DNA of 64,000 nt from Burkholderia metallica (GTDB lineage Bacteria; Pseudomonadota; Gammaproteobacteria; Burkholderiales; Burkholderiaceae), in contig NZ_CADFDB010000006.1 of assembly GCF_902832845.1 (NCBI RefSeq), positions 329,313-393,312 of the forward strand, written 5' to 3'. The position numbers were made by a program, and so were the translations under genes. The notes beneath the pieces are model-generated. The model did not search any database, was not told where the DNA came from, and worked only from the letters and a program-made list of their open reading frames with translations. Positions 7,405 through 48,542 of this stretch are shown one piece after another. Position 1 is the first letter of the stretch. Each line of letters starts with the position of its first letter.

Positions 7405-8387
7405 GAACGGGTAATGCGCATTGACGCCCCGCGCTCGGCCGTTTCGACCGGGCATCCCGACTCCTCGCCCTTGCGCTCGACGCTCCACGTGTGGATCGGC
7501 CGATGCCCCGGCCGCTCCCACTCGGGCGGCATCCACAGGTGTTTCAGCCGCTGCACGACCGGCCCGGGCGCGAGCACGTCGCGCCACATGTCGACGAATT
7601 CGTGCAGATTCAATACCAGGAAGTTGTACGAACGAATCTGCTGCGTGATCCCGTAGTCGACCGGCTCCGTTTCCTCGACGTACGTGCCGAACAAGCGATC
7701 GAAGATGATCAGCACGCCGCCGTAGTTCCTGTCGATGTAACGCGGATTGCGGCCGTGGTGCGCGCGATGGTTCGACGGCGTGTCGAACACGTACTCGAAC
7801 CAGCGCGGCAACCGTCCGATCGCCTCGGTATGCACGAAATACTGGTACGCGAGATCGACCGCGAGCAGGAACAGCACGACGGCAGGCGGAATGCCGAGCC
7901 ACACCGGCGGCAGGTAGAACACGAACACGCCGACGAACGCGTTCAGCAGCGACTGCCGCATCGCGGTCGTGAAGTTCATCACTTCACCGCTGTGATGCGG
8001 CACGTGCGCGGCCCAGAACCAGCGCACGCGGTGCGACGTGCGATGAAACCAGTAGTAGCAGAACTCGACGACGACGACGATCGGCACGATCGTCGCGCCG
8101 TTCACCGGCACGTCGAACAGCCGGTGCCGATAGACCCACGCGAAGATCGCTCCCGTGAACAGGAGCCCCATCACCGTTTCGGCCACCTGATAACCGGCAC
8201 CGAGCGACAGGTTCGCGACGATCTCCTTCCAGCGAAACGGCTCGCGGCGGCCGCGCCCCGTCATCACCGCATACTCGATCGCGAACGCGATCAGGAAGAC
8301 CGGCGTCATGCCGATCAGCAGCACCTGCTTCCAGTCCACGTCGTTACCCAGGAACGCATGGAGCCACGTCATCAATTCGGTCGGCAT
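7401..8387 (-). CDS. Sterol desaturase / fatty acid hydroxylase family protein
   Basis: A 328-residue integral membrane di-iron enzyme. Hydrophobic segments at residues ~20-40, 62-85 and 97-112 are followed by the histidine clusters HRTSH, HVPHH and HRAHH that bind the two irons in the FA_hydroxylase superfamily. The predicted reaction is O2-dependent hydroxylation or desaturation of a lipid-type substrate; the substrate is unknown. ATG 8387 is used; a TTG six codons earlier is an alternative. Divergent from an AraC regulator whose promoter holds a 21-bp-spaced direct repeat, so regulation by that protein is plausible. Confidence 0.88.
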   Translation of the reverse strand: MPTELMTWLHAFLGNDVDWKQVLLIGMTPVFLIAFAIEYAVMTGRGRREPFRWKEIVANLSLGAGYQVAETVMGLLFTGAIFAWVYRHRLFDVPVNGATIVPIVVVVEFCYYWFHRTSHRVRWFWAAHVPHHSGEVMNFTTAMRQSLLNAFVGVFVFYLPPVWLGIPPAVVLFLLAVDLAYQYFVHTEAIGRLPRWFEYVFDTPSNHRAHHGRNPRYIDRNYGGVLIIFDRLFGTYVEETEPVDYGITQQIRSYNFLVLNLHEFVDMWRDVLAPGPVVQRLKHLWMPPEWERPGHRPIHTWSVERKGEESGCPVETAERGASMRITRS

Positions 8388-12690: not shown

Positions 12691-12897
12691 TCATCCCTGG
12701 ATGCTGAGCGCTTTCTCGATCGCGGCAATCAACTTGAACGCATCGTCGCGTCCGATCAGAAAACCCCGGCTGGTGTACTCGCATCCGAACGCGTAGAAGC
12801 TCGGCAGCAGCGTCACCATGTCCTTCGTCCGATCGAGATCGACTTCGCATTTCGTCAGGGGGAAAAACGGGGGTACCTCCGCCGGCAGGTTGTACAC
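12691..12897 (-). CDS. Small hypothetical protein (68 aa) downstream of rpsU
   Basis: Starts at GTG 12897 with AGGAGCGCATC directly upstream. The sequence MYNLPAEVPPFFPLTKCEVD and the ending GRDDAFKLIAAIEKALSIQG suggest a compact cytosolic protein without signal or membrane segment. Only nine bases separate it from the rpsU stop, so the two are very likely cotranscribed and possibly translationally coupled. Function unknown. Confidence 0.6.
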   Translation of the reverse strand: MYNLPAEVPPFFPLTKCEVDLDRTKDMVTLLPSFYAFGCEYTSRGFLIGRDDAFKLIAAIEKALSIQG

Positions 12898-40240: not shown

Positions 40241-40939
40241 TCAGAGGGCGTCCGCTCCGCTTGCGCTCGCATCCGCCGGAGCGGCCCCACCGCGACACGT
40301 CGGCTGCCCCGGAATCTCGACGACGCGCCCTTGCAGCGGCCGCGGCACGCCCGGGTACACATTGAACGGTTCGACCGCCTGCCCGTCGACCTTCGCGTCC
40401 TTCACCGCATAACGTACGGTTCCCGTCGCCGTCAGCCGCGCGCCGTGCGCGTCGCACGCAACGGACAATGCCTCCTTCCGGCTCTCCGGCATTTGCCGGA
40501 CGAGCGCACTGAATCCCAGATTGACGACGATGCTCCCGGTCGCCTTCTGCTGCCCCTGCGGCATCACCTTGATCTCGGGTTTGACATCCAGCCGATACAC
40601 CGTCTCGGCCTGAACCGCCCGCAACGGCTTCAACGCAATGCTCTTGGTCTGCCCGGGCGCGAGCGTCAGCTTGAACGGGAATGCATAGAGCGCCGGATTC
40701 GCTTCGTTGCCGACCGGCTCGAGCTTCTCGTCTTTCAGCGGCACGCCGGGATTGAGCAGGCGCGACAATGAAATGGTCACGTACTCGGGGCGATCGCCGT
40801 TGTTGACGATCTGCACGTTTGCCGTGCCCGAATCGACCGGGATTTCCTTCGGAAACACGTCGATCGTCGCAACCGCGACGCCCGGAATCAGCGCGGCGAG
40901 CGTGGCCGCAATCGGAAGAAAGAGTGAACGCAATCTCAT
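40241..40939 (-). CDS. CS1-type pilus periplasmic chaperone (distal copy)
   Basis: A 232-residue exported protein from ATG 40939, with a signal peptide ending near IPGVAVA. The fold has the conserved chaperone strand pattern: IDVFPKEIPVDSGTANVQIV, PEYVTISLSRLLNPG, APGQTKSIALKPL, then VYRLDVKPEIKVMPQG and VNLGFSALVRQMPES, ending in a second domain with a disulfide pair (VACDAHG and QPTCRGG). It belongs to the CooB/CblB alpha-clade chaperones. It is the last gene of the pilus operon, 193 bases after the second pilin and preceded by a hairpin. Confidence 0.85.
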   Translation of the reverse strand: MRLRSLFLPIAATLAALIPGVAVATIDVFPKEIPVDSGTANVQIVNNGDRPEYVTISLSRLLNPGVPLKDEKLEPVGNEANPALYAFPFKLTLAPGQTKSIALKPLRAVQAETVYRLDVKPEIKVMPQGQQKATGSIVVNLGFSALVRQMPESRKEALSVACDAHGARLTATGTVRYAVKDAKVDGQAVEPFNVYPGVPRPLQGRVVEIPGQPTCRGGAAPADASASGADAL

Positions 40940-41132: not shown

Positions 41133-41684
41133 CTACTGCTGTTTCACGACGACCGGCTCGAACACGAGCGACAGCGTGCCCGTATAGGTGCCGACCGTAC
41201 TCCTGAAGTCGCCTTCCGGCGGATACGCGGAAACGGCGAGACGGTAATAGCCTTCGGAATCGACATTGGGCGACGGCGGCGCCGGGTTGTTGAATTCGAC
41301 CACCTGCCCGACGACGAGCGGCTTCGGGTCGGCCCCTTCGGCGCCGATGCTGACCGCCGGCTTGCGGAACGCGAGCGTCGGCTTGGCCTGATTCCGGATA
41401 TCGAGCGGTTGATCCATGCGGACCTGAAATCTGCCCGTCGTCGATACCACGCGCAGCCGCGCGTCCACCTCGTACGCCGTCTCCCAGCCGCCGAACTGCT
41501 GCATCGTCAGGCCCTGCCCGAACCAGCCGCCCTTGTCGTCGGTGATGATCAGGTTGTTCGGGCGCACGACCTTGGCCGTAATCTTGCTCTGCGTCTTGCC
41601 CTTGATCTCCAGGGTTTCCGCCGACGTGTACATCGGCTGGAGCGCCAGCGCCGCCAGCAATCCGCTCAGGATGATTTTGCTCAT
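41133..41684 (-). CDS. Second CS1-type pilin subunit
   Basis: A 183-residue protein with signal peptide MSKIILSGLLAALALQPMYT, cleaved near TSA. The mature protein ends in the family C-terminal strand GTYTGTLSLVFEPVVVKQQ, parallel to TYSGDLVMVFEP-type ends of CS1 pilins, and has RVVSTTGRFQVRMDQPLDI matching the core strands of the major pilin at 47491. It is only eight bases after the second tip gene, with AGGAAGCGAA before its ATG. It may be a minor or alternative shaft subunit. Confidence 0.8.
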   Translation of the reverse strand: MSKIILSGLLAALALQPMYTSAETLEIKGKTQSKITAKVVRPNNLIITDDKGGWFGQGLTMQQFGGWETAYEVDARLRVVSTTGRFQVRMDQPLDIRNQAKPTLAFRKPAVSIGAEGADPKPLVVGQVVEFNNPAPPSPNVDSEGYYRLAVSAYPPEGDFRSTVGTYTGTLSLVFEPVVVKQQ

Positions 41685-41743
41685 TTCGCTTCCTATGATT
41701 TCGTGACGACCGTGAACGACAGCACATCGCTGTAGTCGCCAGC
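41653..41743. repeat. 91-bp perfect direct repeat, copy A
   Basis: Identical to 42699-42789. It covers the first codons of the second pilin gene, its ribosome site and the last codons of tip gene 2. Similarity continues at lower identity through the C-terminal half of the tip gene. It marks a tandem duplication of about 1046 bp. Confidence 0.9.
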
Positions 41744-42730
41744 GTCCACAGTTGCGTCGACCGAGGTCCTGAACGTCGGCACGAAGCAGGTCCGAGCGTT
41801 GTTGTTCAACAGCACCGGGCTGGCGCTCGTATTCGGCAACCGGAACGTCGCGCTGCCACTGTCCAGCGTCAGGTCGTACGGAACCGTCTGCTCAGGCTTG
41901 CTCGCATTCCTGAGCAGATACCGGTTACCCGAAACACCGTTCGCACTCGTCGCATTGATCACGAAATTGCGACTACCGCCGTTGAACCCCATGTACGTGA
42001 AGCAGAGCTGCTGCTCCGCACCCGCAATCGTCTTTTCGCCATCGCCTCGCGGCAATTCCCCGAGATTCCAGTCGGGTGCCGCCACATCTACCGCGAGAAT
42101 GGCCGGCGGATCCGGCGGCGTGACCTCGGGATCGATCACCTTGCATGAACTGCTCCCGCTCACGGGGGTGAGATAGACGCCACCAGTAACCTCGCCGCGA
42201 TCGTTGGCATCAGTAAAGATGCCGGCACGGAGCGTAATGCCGGGCCAATCCTTGATGATGGCATTGTCGATAATCACCTCGACCTGGGCCTTGTGTGCGT
42301 AGCGTGCTGCCCAGAGATACTGCCCCCAATACGTCACGTGATAGTTGCCAACAATTGACGCCCTAAAGTGTTCAACGCCGCGCATCTTGACAGACTTTGC
42401 CGCCGCCGTGCTTTGCTTCATCTTTCCGTTCGCGTCATACGTGTAGACCAGAACGCCCCGGGATACGAAAGTGCTGAATCCGATGTTCAAATCGGAAGCC
42501 TTATAGTCAAATACCACTTGAAGAGTACTGGTCCCATCCCCGTTATTTATCCACGCGCACGCATCATAGCTATAAACCAGGTCGGCGGGTATAAGGTCCC
42601 ACCCAGCAGATGCGTTCAACGAAAGGCCCATCAGGCATGCGCCGAATAGACAACCTCGCCACCGCCGAATCATTCCGAATTTTTTCATCGATTTTTCAGC
42701 CAGCAATCCGCTCAGGATGATTTTGCTCAT
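41693..42730 (-). CDS. CblD/CooD-like pilus tip subunit 2 (chimeric leader)
   Basis: A 345-residue protein. The C-terminal ~135 residues (from VAAPDWNLGELPRGDGEKTI to LSFTVVTKS) form the conserved CblD-family pilin domain and are nearly identical to tip subunit 1. The N-terminal ~190 residues differ and are probably the adhesin domain. The first 11 residues, MSKIILSGLLA, are those of the downstream pilin and then run in frame into the native signal MKKFGMIRRWRGCLFGACLM. Translation at ATG 42730 uses AGGAAGCGAA copied from the pilin gene; ATG 42688 would be the original start but has no ribosome site. CblD/CooD proteins initiate assembly and sit at the tip. Confidence 0.85.
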   Translation of the reverse strand: MSKIILSGLLAEKSMKKFGMIRRWRGCLFGACLMGLSLNASAGWDLIPADLVYSYDACAWINNGDGTSTLQVVFDYKASDLNIGFSTFVSRGVLVYTYDANGKMKQSTAAAKSVKMRGVEHFRASIVGNYHVTYWGQYLWAARYAHKAQVEVIIDNAIIKDWPGITLRAGIFTDANDRGEVTGGVYLTPVSGSSSCKVIDPEVTPPDPPAILAVDVAAPDWNLGELPRGDGEKTIAGAEQQLCFTYMGFNGGSRNFVINATSANGVSGNRYLLRNASKPEQTVPYDLTLDSGSATFRLPNTSASPVLLNNNARTCFVPTFRTSVDATVDAGDYSDVLSFTVVTKS

Positions 42731-42789
42731 TTCGCTTCCTATGATTTCGTGACGACCGTGAACGACAGCACATCGCTGTAGTCGCCAGC
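42699..42789. repeat. 91-bp perfect direct repeat, copy B
   Basis: Identical to 41653-41743. Here the pilin-gene part is only an 11-codon remnant, fused to the leader of tip gene 2. The repeat also contains the last codons and stop of tip gene 1. Confidence 0.9.
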
Positions 42790-43767
42790 ATCCACGGTCG
42801 CGTTGACCGAGGTCCTGAACGTCGGAACAAAGCAGGTGCGCGCGCTGTCGTTCAATCGCACCGGGCTTGCGCTCGCATTCGGCAGCCGGAACGTTGCGCT
42901 ACCGCTGTCCAGCGTCATGTCGTACGGAATCGTCTGGGACGGCTTGCTGGTATTCCTGAGCAGATAACGGTTACCCGAAATACCGTTCGCGCTCGACGCA
43001 TTGATCACGAAATTACGATAGCCGTCGAGGCCCGTGTACGTGAAGCAGAGCTGCTGCGCCGCACCGGCGAGCGTCTTCTCGCCATCGCCTCGCGGCAATT
43101 CCTCGAGATTCCAGTCGGGTGCCGCCACATCTACCACGAGAGAGGGCGTCGGCGGTGGCGGGACTTCGGGATTGATCACCTGGCAGGTGTTGGCACTGCC
43201 AGTGTTGGTGACATAGGCCCCGCCGGTAATCTCGCCAACGTCGTCGCCTATCTTGTAGTTGCCGGCACGGATGGAAATGCCGGGCCAGTCCCTGATTTCG
43301 GCATTGTTGATCATCACCTCGATCACAGCCGTGAACGGATTTCTATTTTTCCAGTTGGAAGGATCCCACTCGCTCGCGCCGAGCCTATATATCACGTAAT
43401 CGTCACTCACAAAGCCGCTAGTGGATTTACTGCCGTTAATAGCGACATAATTCGCCGCGTTGCTGCTTGGCAGCATGTTCCCATTAGCATCATACGTATA
43501 GATCAGGATACCTCTAGATATAAAATCACTGTCAGGCGAGGGTTTACCGTTCGGCAATACCCCTAGATTACCCGTAATGGATTTAAAATTAGCGGTCACC
43601 TGAAGCGTACTCGTTCCGTCTCCGTTGTTTTTCCACACGCACCCGCTGTAGTTGGTGATCACACTGGCGTACTGAAGCTTGTAGGCCGCAGCGTTGAACG
43701 AAAGCACCATCAGACATGCACCAAAGATGCAACCTCGCCATCGCCGAATAACTCCGAAGCTTTTCAT
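42739..43767 (-). CDS. CblD/CooD-like pilus tip subunit 1
   Basis: A 342-residue protein with signal peptide MKSFGVIRRWRGCIFGACLM, cleaved near NAAA. The N-terminal adhesin-like domain has two cysteines (NYSGCVWKNN and SANTCQVINP) with lower GC than the rest of the operon. A Pro-rich joint PEVPPPPTP leads to the C-terminal pilin domain (VAAPDWNLEELPRGDGEKTL to LSFTVVTKS) with its own cysteine pair (QQLCFTYTG and RTCFVPTF). The start has GGAATGAAGAATCG upstream. Family role: initiator and receptor-binding tip of CS1/cable pili. Confidence 0.88.
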   Translation of the reverse strand: MKSFGVIRRWRGCIFGACLMVLSFNAAAYKLQYASVITNYSGCVWKNNGDGTSTLQVTANFKSITGNLGVLPNGKPSPDSDFISRGILIYTYDANGNMLPSSNAANYVAINGSKSTSGFVSDDYVIYRLGASEWDPSNWKNRNPFTAVIEVMINNAEIRDWPGISIRAGNYKIGDDVGEITGGAYVTNTGSANTCQVINPEVPPPPTPSLVVDVAAPDWNLEELPRGDGEKTLAGAAQQLCFTYTGLDGYRNFVINASSANGISGNRYLLRNTSKPSQTIPYDMTLDSGSATFRLPNASASPVRLNDSARTCFVPTFRTSVNATVDAGDYSDVLSFTVVTKS

Positions 43768-43952
43768 CGATTCTTCATTCCGATTAAGTCAATACGTCAA
43801 GCTGGCCATAACTGGAAATGGCCCCTGCGACCTGCGTTGCATGCTTGGCGATGTGAGGAAACGACCTTATCCGCGCAACACTCCATGTGCGATTGTGTAC
43901 AGCCACGCGTCATCTCGACGGCAGGGGCGCACATTGTTTCGGCAACCGCCGG

Positions 43953-44426
43953 TTACTGAGCCAACGCCGCACGTTGGTAGATCACCACGCCATATCCGAC
44001 ATTGACGAACAGCGGAGCCGGCGCACCTTCGCTCTGACCGGCATCGACAGCAATCCGCTCGTTTGGCCGGAACGTAACGCGCCATACCTGCGTTTTCGAA
44101 GGCACAGCCAGTTCTTTCAGCCCGATTCGATATTTCTGCCCCGGCGCCAGCGCCAAGCGCCCGGGCACCACCAGCAGCATGGGTCGCTCCACTTCTCCTA
44201 CCGGCACCCGATGCTCGGGAGAATCGCCCGGATTGGTCAGCAGGTGCTGCTCGATGTCCAGGTAAAGCGGCGTGTCGCCGGCGTTCTCGACATACAGTTC
44301 GGGCGCCGGCTTTTCCGGCTCGAGCGTCAGCTCCATGCGCGACAGCTTCAGCACGCCGGCGGCCATGCTGGAGGTGCAGGCCAGCGCGGCCAGCACCCCG
44401 ATTGCGGTGCGCGCCACGCGCATCAT
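43953..44426 (-). CDS. Half-size pilus chaperone-like protein
   Basis: A 157-residue exported protein, signal ending SSMAAG. It has the same strand sequence as the first domain of the neighbouring chaperone: LKLSRMELTLEPEKPAPELY, DTPLYLDIEQHLLTNPGDSP, APGQKYRIGLKEL, QVWRVTFRPNERIA and VNVGYGVVIYQRAALAQ. It ends before a second domain. Its ATG overlaps the preceding stop (TGATG), with GGAG eight bases upstream, so it is translationally coupled. It may be a dedicated second chaperone, or a donor that forms a heterodimer; this is inference. Confidence 0.75.
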   Translation of the reverse strand: MMRVARTAIGVLAALACTSSMAAGVLKLSRMELTLEPEKPAPELYVENAGDTPLYLDIEQHLLTNPGDSPEHRVPVGEVERPMLLVVPGRLALAPGQKYRIGLKELAVPSKTQVWRVTFRPNERIAVDAGQSEGAPAPLFVNVGYGVVIYQRAALAQ

Positions 44427-45112
44427 CACGGGCACTCCAGCGTCTGCGGCTTGTCGTCGACACGCAACGTCATCCGCTTCGTCGCGAAGTGCTGAGGCGT
44501 GCCCGGGAATACCGCGATCGTTTGTGCAGCCGCCGCGCCGTCATACTTCGCATCGTTGAACACCTGGCGCACGTTGCCGGTGTTCTCGAGCGTCAGGCCG
44601 CCGTTCTCGCAACGGTGCGCCCAGCTCACGCGTTGCTTGCCCGGCGGCGGCATGTGCCGCACCAGCACGCCATAACCGACGGATACCGACATCGGCGCGG
44701 TGATCTTGTCCTGCGGCGCGTCGTCCACCTTGAGCGACCTGACCGGCACGATATAGAGCCGGTACAGTTCTTCGTTCTCGGGCTCCGCGAGCGACCTGAG
44801 CGTGATCGAGCGCGACTGGTTCGGGCCGAGCGTCAGCTTGTCCGGGCTCGCAAGCACGCCCGGATGCTGCAGCTCGCCGAGGTTCTGTTTCTCTTCGGGC
44901 GTTTTGCCCGGATTCATCACTTTCTGCGCCGAGATCGACAGGTAGAGCGGCGCGTCGCCCATGTTCTTCACCGTGACGGTCTGGTCGTGATTGTTGAATA
45001 CCTTGGTCGTGGCCGGCATCACCATCAGCTCACCTTCGGCATGCGCCGGTTGAGCGGCGGCAAACAGCAGCGCGCACGCTAGCGGAAGTGCGGTTCGCAA
45101 GTTCAGATTCAT
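44426..45112 (-). CDS. CS1-type pilus periplasmic chaperone (CblB/CooB-like)
   Basis: A 228-residue protein with signal peptide ending QPAHAEG and AGGAATTGACGAC before ATG 45112. Domain 1 has GELMVMPATTKVFNNHDQTV, LYLSISAQKVMNPGKTPEEK, LGPNQSRSITLRSL, LYRLYIVPV and VSVGYGVLVRHMPPPG. Domain 2 has a cysteine pair (HRCENGG and TLECP). It binds pilin subunits by donor-strand complementation and hands them to the usher. Located 33 bases after the usher gene. Confidence 0.88.
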   Translation of the reverse strand: MNLNLRTALPLACALLFAAAQPAHAEGELMVMPATTKVFNNHDQTVTVKNMGDAPLYLSISAQKVMNPGKTPEEKQNLGELQHPGVLASPDKLTLGPNQSRSITLRSLAEPENEELYRLYIVPVRSLKVDDAPQDKITAPMSVSVGYGVLVRHMPPPGKQRVSWAHRCENGGLTLENTGNVRQVFNDAKYDGAAAAQTIAVFPGTPQHFATKRMTLRVDDKPQTLECP

Positions 45113-45145: not shown

Positions 45146-47401
45146 TCATTGGCAGCGGAAGTCGTTTCCGCCGGCGTCCTTCAGGCTGCACGTGTAGTGA
45201 TGGCCGTCCTGGTCGAGCGTGATCTGCGACAACAAGGTTTTGCTGACAATCGAGAACAGCCCGTTCGGATGCACCGTGTCGCCGGTTTCGATCACCTTGC
45301 CGCTCACCGGCTTGCCGTTCGTGTCCTTCAGGAAGCCGCTGTACACCATGTTGATGTCGACCTTCGCCAATGCCGCGTAGACCTGGCCCGGGTGAGCCCG
45401 GACGATGTTCGCCGGCACCTCGACGTTCATGTCGAACTGCTCGCTGTTGCTCATCACGCGCGCGAACGACACGTCGCGATACGCATTGAGCGGCACCGCA
45501 TACGTGCTGTTGCCGGCCACCGGGCTGCCTTCGACGTTGAACCCGTACTTCACGCCCTGAAGGTCCGGCGTTTTCAACAGCATCGCGCTGCCACTCGAGC
45601 TGTAACGGCCGAACGCAACGCCGTCCTTGCTGGCCGCGACCATGCCGCGGTAGTTGAAATCGACGTTGCCGCCACCGCTGCTCTGGCCCAGGTTCAGCGA
45701 CGCGTCGCCGCGCGTGCCGGAGCGCGTACCGTAGACGTTCACGCCGTAATTGGTGCCGATCCGGTTCGCCGTCAGGCCGACGGATGTCATGCCGAAGCCG
45801 TCCTGGAAATCCTTGCGGACGTCGCCGCTGATCTGCGTCTGGCCGCCGGAATGCGCGGCGCTGAAGCTCGCCTGCGCCCTGTCCAGCATCATCGTCATGT
45901 TGAAATACACGCCGTAGCCACCGCGGCCCTGATAGCCGCCCTTCTGCACACCGAGCGCGAACGTGCTCCACAGGCCGTTCGGCCGGTAGTTCCAGCGCGC
46001 CTCGGCCTGCTGCGATTCGCTGAACGTCGAGCGCTGGTAGTTGTAGCCGAACGTCACGCCGCGGAACGCGCGGCTATACGACACCGCCGTGCTCGGCTGA
46101 CCGATGTAGAAGCGCGACACGGCGGTATTCTGGTAGCGGCTGACCATCAGGCTGCCAAGCGCCTCGCTCGCCATCGACAGGTTGACGTAGCCGCCCGTGC
46201 TGCGTTCTCCGCTCAACAGACCGAGCGTGGGCGTGATATCGACGCCGCCCAGCTGCATCGGCCGCGTGATGTTGACTTCGGCCGCCCATTTGCCGCCCTT
46301 TCCGGCGAGCATCGACCCGTTCAGGTAGAACTGCTTGAAGTTCCGGCTGACCGCGGCCTCGAGCAGATAGCCGCCGTTGCCCATCTCCTTGCCGGCCGTC
46401 ACGTGCCATGCGTTGCCGCTGCTCGCGCCAAAATTGAGGTTGTTGACCTCGCGGGTTTCGCGGTTGACCACGTTACCGTTGCGGTCGACGAGGCGGACCT
46501 CGACCGAGTAGTAGCCGCCCGGCAGATCGGCGAAGCTGATCTCGTTGCGGCCGAGCACGGCCGGCCGCTTCAGGATCTGCCGGCCGTTCCGGTAGAACTC
46601 GTAGTTGCCTTCGGCCGACGCGTAGAGGATCAGCGAGCCGGCCTTGCTGTCGACCTGCAGGTGGGTCTGGCTGCCGACTGTCACGAACTGGTCGAAGCTC
46701 GGCGACAGCAGCGTGTTGACCGTGCCGGCCGCGTAATCGATGTTGTTCTGCTTGCCCGCCCGCACGTACGTTTGGGCGAAATTCTTCTGCAGGTAGTACG
46801 AAGACAGCCCCTGCTGGCTGGCGCTGGAATGGCGCATTTCGGTACGGTTCGCGTACCAGCTCATGTAGCCGAAGCTCTGGAGCGGCAGCCCGACATACGT
46901 GTTGCCGTTCACGTTGACCGCACGGTAACCGTCGGACGCCGCCCGCAAGTCGAGCGCCTGGTTGTTGACCAGCCCGAAACCCGTTTCCGGCGCGATGTAG
47001 TCTTCGCGCGAATCGCGGATCGAGATCGACCGCTTCAGCTTGTCGACGGTAACGTGGTACCCGTCTATCAAGATGTCGCAACCCTTGCTGCAGCGCTTGT
47101 AGTCGAGCTGCGAGATCACGCTCCGGATCGTGTCGACGTCGTCGGGGGAAATACCGTTTGCTGCATACTTGGCCGCGTCGAATTCAAGCGACGCGGCCTT
47201 CGATGAATAACTGATGAACCCCGGCAGCGTGCGCCCGTTGAAGGTCGCGACATAGTTCGCACTATCGTCCAGTTCGGCCGCACTGAACCCTTCTGGCACG
47301 CCATACGTTACCTTTAGTTGTGCGAATGAGTATGACGAAACAAAAAGAAACGCACCCAGCCACAGCTTGTTGAAACGGAAAGGAGCTTGATAGGCGACCA
47401 C
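45146..47401 (-). CDS. CS1/cable-type outer-membrane usher (TcfC/CblC family)
   Basis: A 751-residue protein from GTG 47401 with a signal peptide (LWLGAFLFVSSYSFAQL). It has the N-terminal chaperone-binding part with DFDAAKY-like segments, a large beta barrel with repeated GY/GR-rich amphipathic strands, and a plug-like PGGYYSVEVRLVDRNGNVVN Ig domain. The C-terminus ends at a cysteine pair (HHYTCSLKD and DFRCQ). It is shorter than ~820-residue gamma-type ushers and fits the alpha clade. It exports and assembles the pilus fibre. It begins 90 bases after the pilin stop, beyond a stable hairpin. Confidence 0.88.
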   Translation of the reverse strand: MVAYQAPFRFNKLWLGAFLFVSSYSFAQLKVTYGVPEGFSAAELDDSANYVATFNGRTLPGFISYSSKAASLEFDAAKYAANGISPDDVDTIRSVISQLDYKRCSKGCDILIDGYHVTVDKLKRSISIRDSREDYIAPETGFGLVNNQALDLRAASDGYRAVNVNGNTYVGLPLQSFGYMSWYANRTEMRHSSASQQGLSSYYLQKNFAQTYVRAGKQNNIDYAAGTVNTLLSPSFDQFVTVGSQTHLQVDSKAGSLILYASAEGNYEFYRNGRQILKRPAVLGRNEISFADLPGGYYSVEVRLVDRNGNVVNRETREVNNLNFGASSGNAWHVTAGKEMGNGGYLLEAAVSRNFKQFYLNGSMLAGKGGKWAAEVNITRPMQLGGVDITPTLGLLSGERSTGGYVNLSMASEALGSLMVSRYQNTAVSRFYIGQPSTAVSYSRAFRGVTFGYNYQRSTFSESQQAEARWNYRPNGLWSTFALGVQKGGYQGRGGYGVYFNMTMMLDRAQASFSAAHSGGQTQISGDVRKDFQDGFGMTSVGLTANRIGTNYGVNVYGTRSGTRGDASLNLGQSSGGGNVDFNYRGMVAASKDGVAFGRYSSSGSAMLLKTPDLQGVKYGFNVEGSPVAGNSTYAVPLNAYRDVSFARVMSNSEQFDMNVEVPANIVRAHPGQVYAALAKVDINMVYSGFLKDTNGKPVSGKVIETGDTVHPNGLFSIVSKTLLSQITLDQDGHHYTCSLKDAGGNDFRCQ

Positions 47402-47490: not shown

Positions 47491-48018
47491 TTACGGTGCT
47501 GCTGCTGCGACCGGTTCGAACACCATCACGAGATCGCCGCTGTAGCTGCCGTTCGTGCTGTTCGTGCCGACCTGGATCGGTGCGTCGACGTTGATCTTCA
47601 GGTTGTGGATTTCGTCGAAACCGCCGTTGCCAGCCGTCACTTGCGTGACCTTCTGGACCGCGCCGAACTTGACTTCAGCATCGCCGCCGTTGCCCGTCAG
47701 CGAAACCTTCGCGTTCTTCATTTCGTACGCGCCGCTCGACATCTTCAGCGGTTGTGCGAGCGACACGTTGAAGTCGGCGTTCTTCGACCAGACGCGGATC
47801 GGCAGCGTCTTCTCGAACTTGGCCTGCGTGTAGTCGGTAGCGTTCAGTTCTTCCGTGCCGTACCAGGTCGAGCCGTCCGGCTTCGACACGAAAATGCCGT
47901 CGTTGATCTGGGCGGTCAGCGTGATCTTCTTCGACACCGTATCGGCCTGTGCCGTATGTGCCATGCCGAACAGTGCCGTGGTGACGCCCATTGCCAAAAC
48001 GAGTTTGCTGAGTTTCAT
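47491..48018 (-). CDS. CS1-type major pilin (CblA/CfaB-like)
   Basis: A 175-residue protein with signal peptide MKLSKLVLAMGVTTALFGMA, cleaved after AQA. The mature donor-strand start is DTVSKKITLTAQINDGIFVS. Core segments KTLPIRVWSKNADFNVSLAQ and the terminal strand NGSYSGDLVMVFEPVAAAAP are typical of the CS1/CFA/I and cable pilin family. The mature protein has no cysteine, also typical. ATG 48018 follows TAGGAATTACTCG. It is the first gene of the operon. Confidence 0.9.
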   Translation of the reverse strand: MKLSKLVLAMGVTTALFGMAHTAQADTVSKKITLTAQINDGIFVSKPDGSTWYGTEELNATDYTQAKFEKTLPIRVWSKNADFNVSLAQPLKMSSGAYEMKNAKVSLTGNGGDAEVKFGAVQKVTQVTAGNGGFDEIHNLKINVDAPIQVGTNSTNGSYSGDLVMVFEPVAAAAP

Positions 48019-48542
48019 CGAGTAATTCCTATTAAAGAATGAGCTTCTTAGTTCGAATCGCATTGAATAAATAATCGATGGAAATTCGATACGTGAGAAA
48101 TAGATCCCACCGCTGCAAGTCTATGGACGTAGACGCCAGCTGAAAATGAGACGAGTTCTTAATTGCGAATGAAAATGACTAGTTCAAGTTCCAAAAAATA
48201 TAAAACTGTCACCTTAAGCCCATGATTGTTACGTTGATTTAAAGAATTGTGCGAGGCGAGGCAAGCAGAATGCTTTTCGCAGCGGATCGAGTGCGCGTGG
48301 TTGCAGCGCTCAGGCGTCGATCGGCACGCCGCCGCCGCGGCAGGCAGCGGCTGTCGCGTGGCGAGACGGCTTGTGTGCCGGGCAGGCGCATCCACGCGCA
48401 TGGAACGGGGTGTTCGGGATGGCGGGTGTGCCGCGCGGAGCAGGCGCCGTGTCAGCGCATCGAAGGCGAGGAAAGCGCTACTGCACGGAACCTGCAGTCG
48501 ACCGCACCGCCACGGATCAGGTCGATGCGCCCGGGCTGAAAT
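48019..48542. other. Pilus operon leader (AT-rich) and GC-rich spacer
   Basis: Bases 48019-48240 are strikingly AT-rich for this genome and must contain the pilus promoter; several A/T tracts (for example CAAAAAATATAAAACTG at 48187-48204) are typical of H-NS-type silencing targets. Bases 48240-48540 return to high GC with only shadow frames and no recognisable gene. No regulator gene of the CfaD or CblS type is adjacent. Confidence 0.5.

Follow-up and report, generated by a model that had tools for sequence, protein, structure and literature searches.

The window is the whole stretch of DNA analysed here, 64,000 nt of a Burkholderia metallica contig (NZ_CADFDB010000006.1), and the genome that hosts it (G000) is 7.55 Mb in size. 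A pilus operon occupies its minus strand from 48063 to 40241 and represents a seven-gene type with one extra gene. The genes are, in order, pilin 1, usher, two chaperone-like genes, tip 1, tip 2, pilin 2, and a third chaperone-like gene.

47491..48063 (ORF coordinates as listed), minus strand: pilin 1 gene (CS1-type major pilin), start of the operon; Pfam Fimbrial_CS1 above cut-off
45146..47401, minus strand: usher gene; Pfam TcfC domain above cut-off
44426..45112, minus strand: chaperone-like gene 1; weak TcfA-type match
43953..44426, minus strand: chaperone-like gene 2; weak TcfA-type match
42739..43767, minus strand: tip gene 1, 342 aa; open reading frame aligned with the tips of relatives
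41693..42730, minus strand: tip gene 2, 345 aa when started at the borrowed pilin ATG, which lengthens its leader by 14 residues; open frame
41133..41684, minus strand: pilin 2 gene, 183 aa, intact, parent of the captured fragment; open reading frame and relatives
40241..40939, minus strand: chaperone-like gene 3, end of the operon; weak TcfA-type match, order conserved

Pilin 1 matches PF04449 at 24.8 bits (cut-off 21), as a CS1-type major pilin does, and the usher matches PF16967 (TcfC) at 39.3 bits (cut-off 29.4), which places it with ushers of the TcfC/CfaC kind; a profile of the usher found no match among PDB sequences at E 0.1. The three chaperone-like genes match the TcfA model NF011836 at 9e-13, 3e-7, and 1e-12, all far below its 500-bit cut-off; they are at most candidate alternate (FGA) chaperones. 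Neither tip 1 nor tip 2 matches a family in Pfam at E 0.001, the curated CblD tip family included, or in NCBIfam at E 0.01. The structure model of tip 2 is confident and two-domain (mean pLDDT 84.8), and its C-terminal domain resembles the CFA/I tip CfaE, suggesting a two-domain CfaE-like tip. Foldseek alone gives low TM-scores (0.27–0.30) to CfaE, CsuE, and CupB6, and the comparison at the domain level is clearer. The genome has no further tip besides these two at E 0.001.

Two stretches of exactly 91 bp within the operon are identical, as the sequence-only reading had reported, and the identity cannot be extended by even one base at either end.

42699..42789, minus strand: repeat copy A, with the end of tip 1, the stop/ribosome site, and the captured 32 nt of pilin 2; identical to 41653–41743
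41653..41743, minus strand: repeat copy B, with the end of tip 2, the stop/ribosome site, and the true start of pilin 2; the closest relative, G034, has this arrangement once

Read on the minus strand, each copy opens with 51 nt from the 3' end of a tip gene (16 codons with their stop), continues with 8 nt that include the larger part of the ribosome site, and closes with nt 1–32 of pilin 2, so that the previously described content of tip end, ribosome site, and first pilin codons is present in both. The stop codon overlaps the ribosome site (TAGGAAGCGAAATG). The 91 bp form the first part of a direct repeat of 300 bp that is 90% identical with a spacing of 1046; all of its 30 differences lie within the remaining 209 bp and none in the 91 bp. 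At the difference rate of the repeat, 91 identical bases would arise with a chance of about 8e-7. A cautious estimate through G034 gives 5 to 7.5 expected differences, and the chance of zero is then 7e-3 to 6e-4. The single-copy arrangement in G034 differs from the window repeat at 5/91 bases, so the identity within the genome is more than the conservation of a constrained stretch.

The repeat ends at the seam where the pilin 2 fragment meets the upstream region of tip 2.

42698..42699, minus strand: duplication join point, between nt 32 of pilin 2 and the tenth nt before the own ATG of tip 2; the alignments to the two parents meet without overlap
42612..42698, minus strand: leader region of tip 2, where the duplicated unit begins, 83% identical to 43691–43777; repeat alignment
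43691..43777, minus strand: matching start region of tip 1; repeat alignment
42689..42730, minus strand: leader extension of 14 codons, MSKIILSGLLAEKS, with 11 pilin residues and 3 from the old upstream region; sequence

No bases are common to both parents at the join (42699|42698). All 62 aligned nt on the pilin side are identical, the tip side matches at 83% over 87 nt, and no gap lies between them; a downstream end is thus joined to an upstream start with the parents matched right up to the seam, as in a fusion at the join point of a tandem duplication. Copy A holds 10 whole pilin codons and 2 bases, and the 11th codon (Ala) is completed by the join; the 11 captured pilin codons counted earlier are, more exactly, 10 codons with two thirds of the 11th. 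From 42730 the frame MSKIILSGLLA-EKS-MKKFG... stays open across tip 2 as far as 41693; both other frames run into stops in the 60 nt that start at the pilin ATG. The proposed in-frame chimera, with a tip 2 leader extended by 14 residues, is therefore present, and the duplication seam that carries it is real and well preserved.

A block TTGACGTATTGAC(C/T)TAATCGGAATGAAGA stands directly before the tip ATG (43768–43800 of the window, minus strand; L031, L033). It is kept in the window, G034, and G018 and is gone before tip 2. The tip 1 copy of the block contains a frame of 4 codons, whose stop overlaps the tip 1 ATG.

We compared the locus with related operons. A relative of the tip occurs in 20 of 65 genomes of the genus, the window's own included, and the window species is represented by one genome in the comparisons. 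Twenty regions were taken from the 19 other genomes, 18 of which carry the operon. The two regions of G027 that were studied (L049, L050) show tips only, with no usher or chaperone of this operon; this genome has several tip relatives with 37–42% identity to tip 2, which probably belong to another pilus type. Fifteen of the 18 Burkholderia operons, among them the unduplicated tip–pilin 2 locus of G034, have a single full tip before pilin 2. The arrangement of the window is thus not common to all relatives, and the comparison across Burkholderia genomes proposed by the sequence-only reading bears out a tandem duplication of the tip together with the pilin start. The remaining three operons are those of B. 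catarinensis 89 (G006), with three modules of chaperone 2-like part, tip, and pilin 2, of G025, with two such modules, and of B. aenigmatica LMG 13014 (G001), with two tips.

A scan of contigs with ushers yielded 16 loci, of which eight were already among the Burkholderia operons and eight come from other genera, namely Pseudomonas (5), Erwinia, Serratia, and Pragia; the same scan with tip 2 as the query found no relative. Only Pseudomonas sp. NFIX28 among these eight has two tips, and the gene order differs in five of them. The plasmid collection contains two Burkholderia records by DNA search and the same two by protein search, both single-tip loci. Besides the window, 28 operons were thus collected (including a P. 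edaphica locus that the end of its contig truncates within pilin 2), of which 24 have one full tip, two have tip–tip pairs, and two have repeated modules. A search with the 22 kb around the operon for a donor or an intermediate gave no record matched over 80% of its length. In a wider survey, the tip occurs in 19/398 genomes of the family, all of one genus, in 4/398 genomes of the genus of NFIX28, and in 1/369 genomes of the class, which is the window's own.

Several relatives show irregular copies of operon genes. In B. catarinensis 89 (L040/L053) the three modules stand in succession, and chaperone 2 copies 2 and 3 are diverged, the third being a partial match. The second module of G025 (L048, 7121–8721) has a partial chaperone 2, and its pilin 2 matches only residues 5–73 and 142–178, so that the middle seems to be missing. 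A short tip fragment lies between pilin 2 and chaperone 3 in G048 (L038, about 7651–7764; model positions 265–302, E 2e-5) and is perhaps what remains of another tip copy. G033 (L043, 5561–6121) has an extra pilin 2-like gene between chaperone 2 and its single tip; tblastn matches residues 2–83 only, the middle seems absent, and the gene is perhaps left from a module duplication whose tip was lost. In G008 (L032, 8802–9071) a second, partial chaperone 3 match (54%) lies directly behind the full chaperone 3 gene.

The two other tip–tip loci, LMG 13014 (L047/L056) and NFIX28 (L058), should be noted, since the arrangement of the window had been thought to be without precedent. This claim does not hold, because captured pilin starts lie between the tandem tips in both. 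Each has the same operon type and the same order of tip, captured pilin 2 start, tip, and pilin 2: behind the first tip come the stop, the pilin 2 ribosome site, the ATG, and further pilin bases; these run into the end of a chaperone 2 copy, after which the second tip follows. The breakpoints of the window, LMG 13014, and NFIX28 all differ from one another. Unlike in the window, the upstream breakpoint lies inside the end of chaperone 2 and the fragment is out of frame with the second tip; the captured ATGs open peptides of 30 and 51 residues, which end before the open frame or the ATG of the second tip. A duplicated unit that contains a whole tip and ends in the next gene necessarily leaves such a fragment, and capture therefore needs no special cause. 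Capture is a recurrent by-product of tandem duplication, and one in-frame fusion among three is within chance. What is special in the window, judging from the sequence, is that the unit begins just 10 nt before the tip ATG, so that little of the own ribosome site of tip 2 was kept; in LMG 13014, by comparison, GAGGGG stands shortly upstream of the second tip ATG. In B. catarinensis 89 (three modules) and G025 (two), tips are likewise multiplied in the same operon, but each module contains a pilin 2 gene and not just its start, and no chimera arises at the tip start.

The second tip of LMG 13014 (L056, 12205–13196, the same in L047) is broken into two parts in different frames that meet at about 12834–12846. 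The NFIX28 tips (L058, 11070–12050 and 12387–13355) form a young pair, whose DNA identity is lowest at codons 60–120.

Tip 1 and tip 2 are 64% identical as proteins. Their adhesin domains differ by a dS (Nei–Gojobori) of 0.89 and their pilin domains by one of 0.30, and the corresponding values are 0.46 and 0.20 between tip 1 and the G034 tip, and 0.73 and 0.27 between tip 2 and the G034 tip. The six other operon genes give 0.09–0.26 between the window and G034. The adhesin domain is the more diverged one in all nine tip pairs compared, though the excess is slight in LMG 13014 (0.78/0.65, measured in pieces) and between tips 1 and 2 of B. catarinensis (1.61/1.33). In the NFIX28 pair, adhesin dS is 0.14 with dN 0.18, and pilin-domain dS is 0.08.

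A simple recent duplication as the whole story is ruled out, since the two tip bodies have diverged far beyond their identical tail, with a dS above that to G034. Diverged bodies with an identical tail require later recombination or replacement, and the tail must be younger than the bodies or homogenised. Trees of the two domains conflict: the pilin domain groups tip 1 with tip 2 (85/80), whereas the adhesin domain groups tip 1 with G034 (88/61), and the AU test of the three groupings rejects none. These trees use 8 of 23 aligned tips with gapped columns removed. The full and domain sets were trimmed by the final 15 codons (the repeat contains 16), and neither the broken second tip of LMG 13014 nor any G027 tip is part of alignments A2 and A3 or of the trees. 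Tip 1 and tip 2 also seem to share a deletion of one base before the ATG relative to G034 and G018, by our own reading of the alignment rather than the placement by MAFFT.

These figures give some room to an import, in which the tandem pair came about through recombination with the tip allele of another strain, tip 2 or its adhesin domain being foreign; the 91-bp identity would then show the point at which the crossover returned from the import to the resident sequence. Such a foreign tip 2 body is possible, and the body dS between the tips (adhesin 0.89), above that of the six operon genes between the window and G034 while the tail is identical, would fit it, as would the adhesin-domain tree, which weakly sets tip 2 apart from tip 1 and G034. 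Against this, the pilin-domain tree and the apparent shared 1-nt deletion unite the two tips, and local diversification fits as well, since adhesin dN already exceeds dS in NFIX28, the youngest pair. No donor was found among the 65 genus genomes, in which the best match of tip 2 outside its own genome is G034 (68%). We regard the import as the strongest of the alternatives, but as doubtful overall. We conclude that this lineage probably produced the duplication itself and that recombination either kept the tail identical or made it so.

The start from which tip 2 is translated concerns two sites besides the pilin ATG itself.

42735..42740, minus strand: borrowed ribosome site AGGAAG, overlapping the tip 1 stop codon; sequence
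42686..42688, minus strand: own ATG of tip 2, now internal, with a weak ribosome site (−1.5 kcal/mol); pairing energy

Ribosome-site energies were calculated as pairing with the 16S tail over the 12 nt at −15 to −4. They are −4.2 kcal/mol for 42730, −3.5 for tip 1, −1.5 for 42688, and +0.3 for 42676. The own start of tip 2 was said to lack a ribosome site; the site is weak beside that of the pilin ATG, and over 22 nt upstream 42688 reaches −3.3 against −4.2 at 42730. The gap is smaller there, where a GGA too far upstream is probably counted. The score of 42730 is not rare either, 14% of the ATGs on the same strand scoring as well, and the difference is a modest one. Because the own start has the weaker ribosome site, the pilin ATG at 42730 appears to be the likelier start of tip 2. 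In addition, 23 of 33 distinct tip ends have their stop written as TAGG, which leads straight into the ribosome site (two of the 23 being the window's own, in a motif scan that missed some tips), suggesting that coupling of the next gene to the tip end is the usual design, which tip 2 would have inherited. Slightly longer tip leaders may already exist, as G034 and G018 have, by our reading, in-frame ATGs 12 and 15 nt before the usual tip ATG. The sequence-only reading held that the DNA shows both the event and its consequence. The event, a duplication, stands; the start in use, its coupling, the processing and function of the leader, and the order of events are what we infer, and an in-frame join occurs by chance in about one case in three.

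Translation from the own ATG at 42688 would leave the pilin fragment as an inert scar or at most a short coupled leader. The two other tip–tip loci lend weight to this, since the fragment is out of frame in both and capture thus needs no function. However, a ribosome starting at 42730 meets no stop and passes 42688 in frame, and among the four tip starts scored only 42676 has a weaker site than 42688, which makes translation from the own ATG unlikely.

It is somewhat more unlikely still that tip 2 is a decaying duplicate that is hardly expressed. Extra copies do decay, as seen in the second tip of LMG 13014 in its two frames, the second pilin 2 of G025 matching only at its two ends, and the tip fragment beside the full tip in G048. 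Tip 2, by contrast, is an uninterrupted full-length gene, carries the residues invariant among the 23 aligned tips, and gives the confident two-domain model described above. An assembly artefact is very improbable: a short perfect repeat flanks the junction, but 91 bp falls within ordinary read length, the two tip proteins share just 64% of their residues, and the contig extends over 468 kb.

The repeat, the join, the open frame, the unduplicated relatives, the divergence figures, and the ribosome-site energies are all direct observations, and the reading of them that we favour, with a probability of about 0.72, is a tandem duplication in a CS1-like operon, with tip 2 placed on the pilin ATG and later divergence with homogenised ends. 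The tandem duplication would have copied the segment that begins 10 nt upstream of the tip ATG and ends at nt 32 of pilin 2, with no homology visible at the join. The seam between the tips would thereby have left the conserved element of stop, ribosome site, and ATG with 11 pilin residues, by chance in frame with tip 2. The join would have removed the larger part of the ribosome site that belonged to tip 2, so that translation of this gene most likely starts at 42730 and is coupled to the tip 1 end, in the way usual for pilin 2; its leader, longer by 14 residues, would be cut off with the signal peptide. Later, the adhesin domains would have strongly diverged or been exchanged, while recombination between the copies preserved the identity of the 3' ends and of the pilin start. 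Points against this reading are the order of the dS values, which by itself would make the duplication older than the split from G034, the lean of the adhesin tree to tip 1 with G034, the one-in-three chance of an in-frame join, and the modest ribosome-site gap.

An adhesin gene family is here caught in expansion, with a seam that marks where the copy was joined and that yields a testable prediction of how a new tip copy is translated. The recurrence in two other loci is a more interesting result than the chimera itself. Because LMG 13014 and NFIX28 are independent loci, they suggest that the tip genes of this operon type multiply repeatedly by one route, in which the binding domain changes and the docking domain is kept, and this bears on how pili gain a second binding specificity. 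More speculatively, the operon may stack alternative tip adhesins recurrently and reversibly: duplications running into the next pilin gene would make tip–tip pairs bounded by identical or nearly identical repeats, and these repeats would allow tip loss or homogenisation of the ends while the adhesin domains diversify. The seam in the window would then have rewired the second adhesin to a pilin start with a chimeric leader. We consider this broader picture rather improbable as it stands. Literature on tandem tip genes in this operon type was not found in a search of mainly the open literature, as far as its accessible text goes, which makes the absence a weak one.

Compared with the CS1 and CFA/I class 5 pili, as described in the accessible parts of PMC4133393 and PMC7531860, the operon is alike in its CS1-type pilin 1, its TcfC-type usher domain, and its predicted two-domain CfaE-like tip. 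The CS1 operon encodes four proteins according to those texts, whereas the basic operon here has seven genes (two pilins, three chaperone-like genes, usher, and tip); the window has two tips instead of one, in a seven-gene order that is kept in relatives. A duplication touching a pilus operon is described in the same genus, in the available portion of PMC12124856, for B. thailandensis E264, where 208.6 kb including the csu chaperone–usher pilus operon are duplicated. That case is unlike ours, since a whole operon lies in a huge RecA/IS-mediated duplication, with no tip-gene fusion in the portion available. The closest likeness is to the join-point fusions of tandem duplications, in which his genes were fused to new promoters at the seams (Anderson and Roth 1978, as cited in the accessible part of PMC11111574). 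There, as here, a gene is placed behind foreign expression signals without long homology. In comparison with the fusions in that part of PMC11111574, the signals borrowed here are predicted to be those of translation (ribosome site, ATG, and leader codons), and the gene is that of a pilus tip, whose copies have diverged. The principle of the join-point fusion is thus already known, and its setting in this operon is, as far as we know, new.
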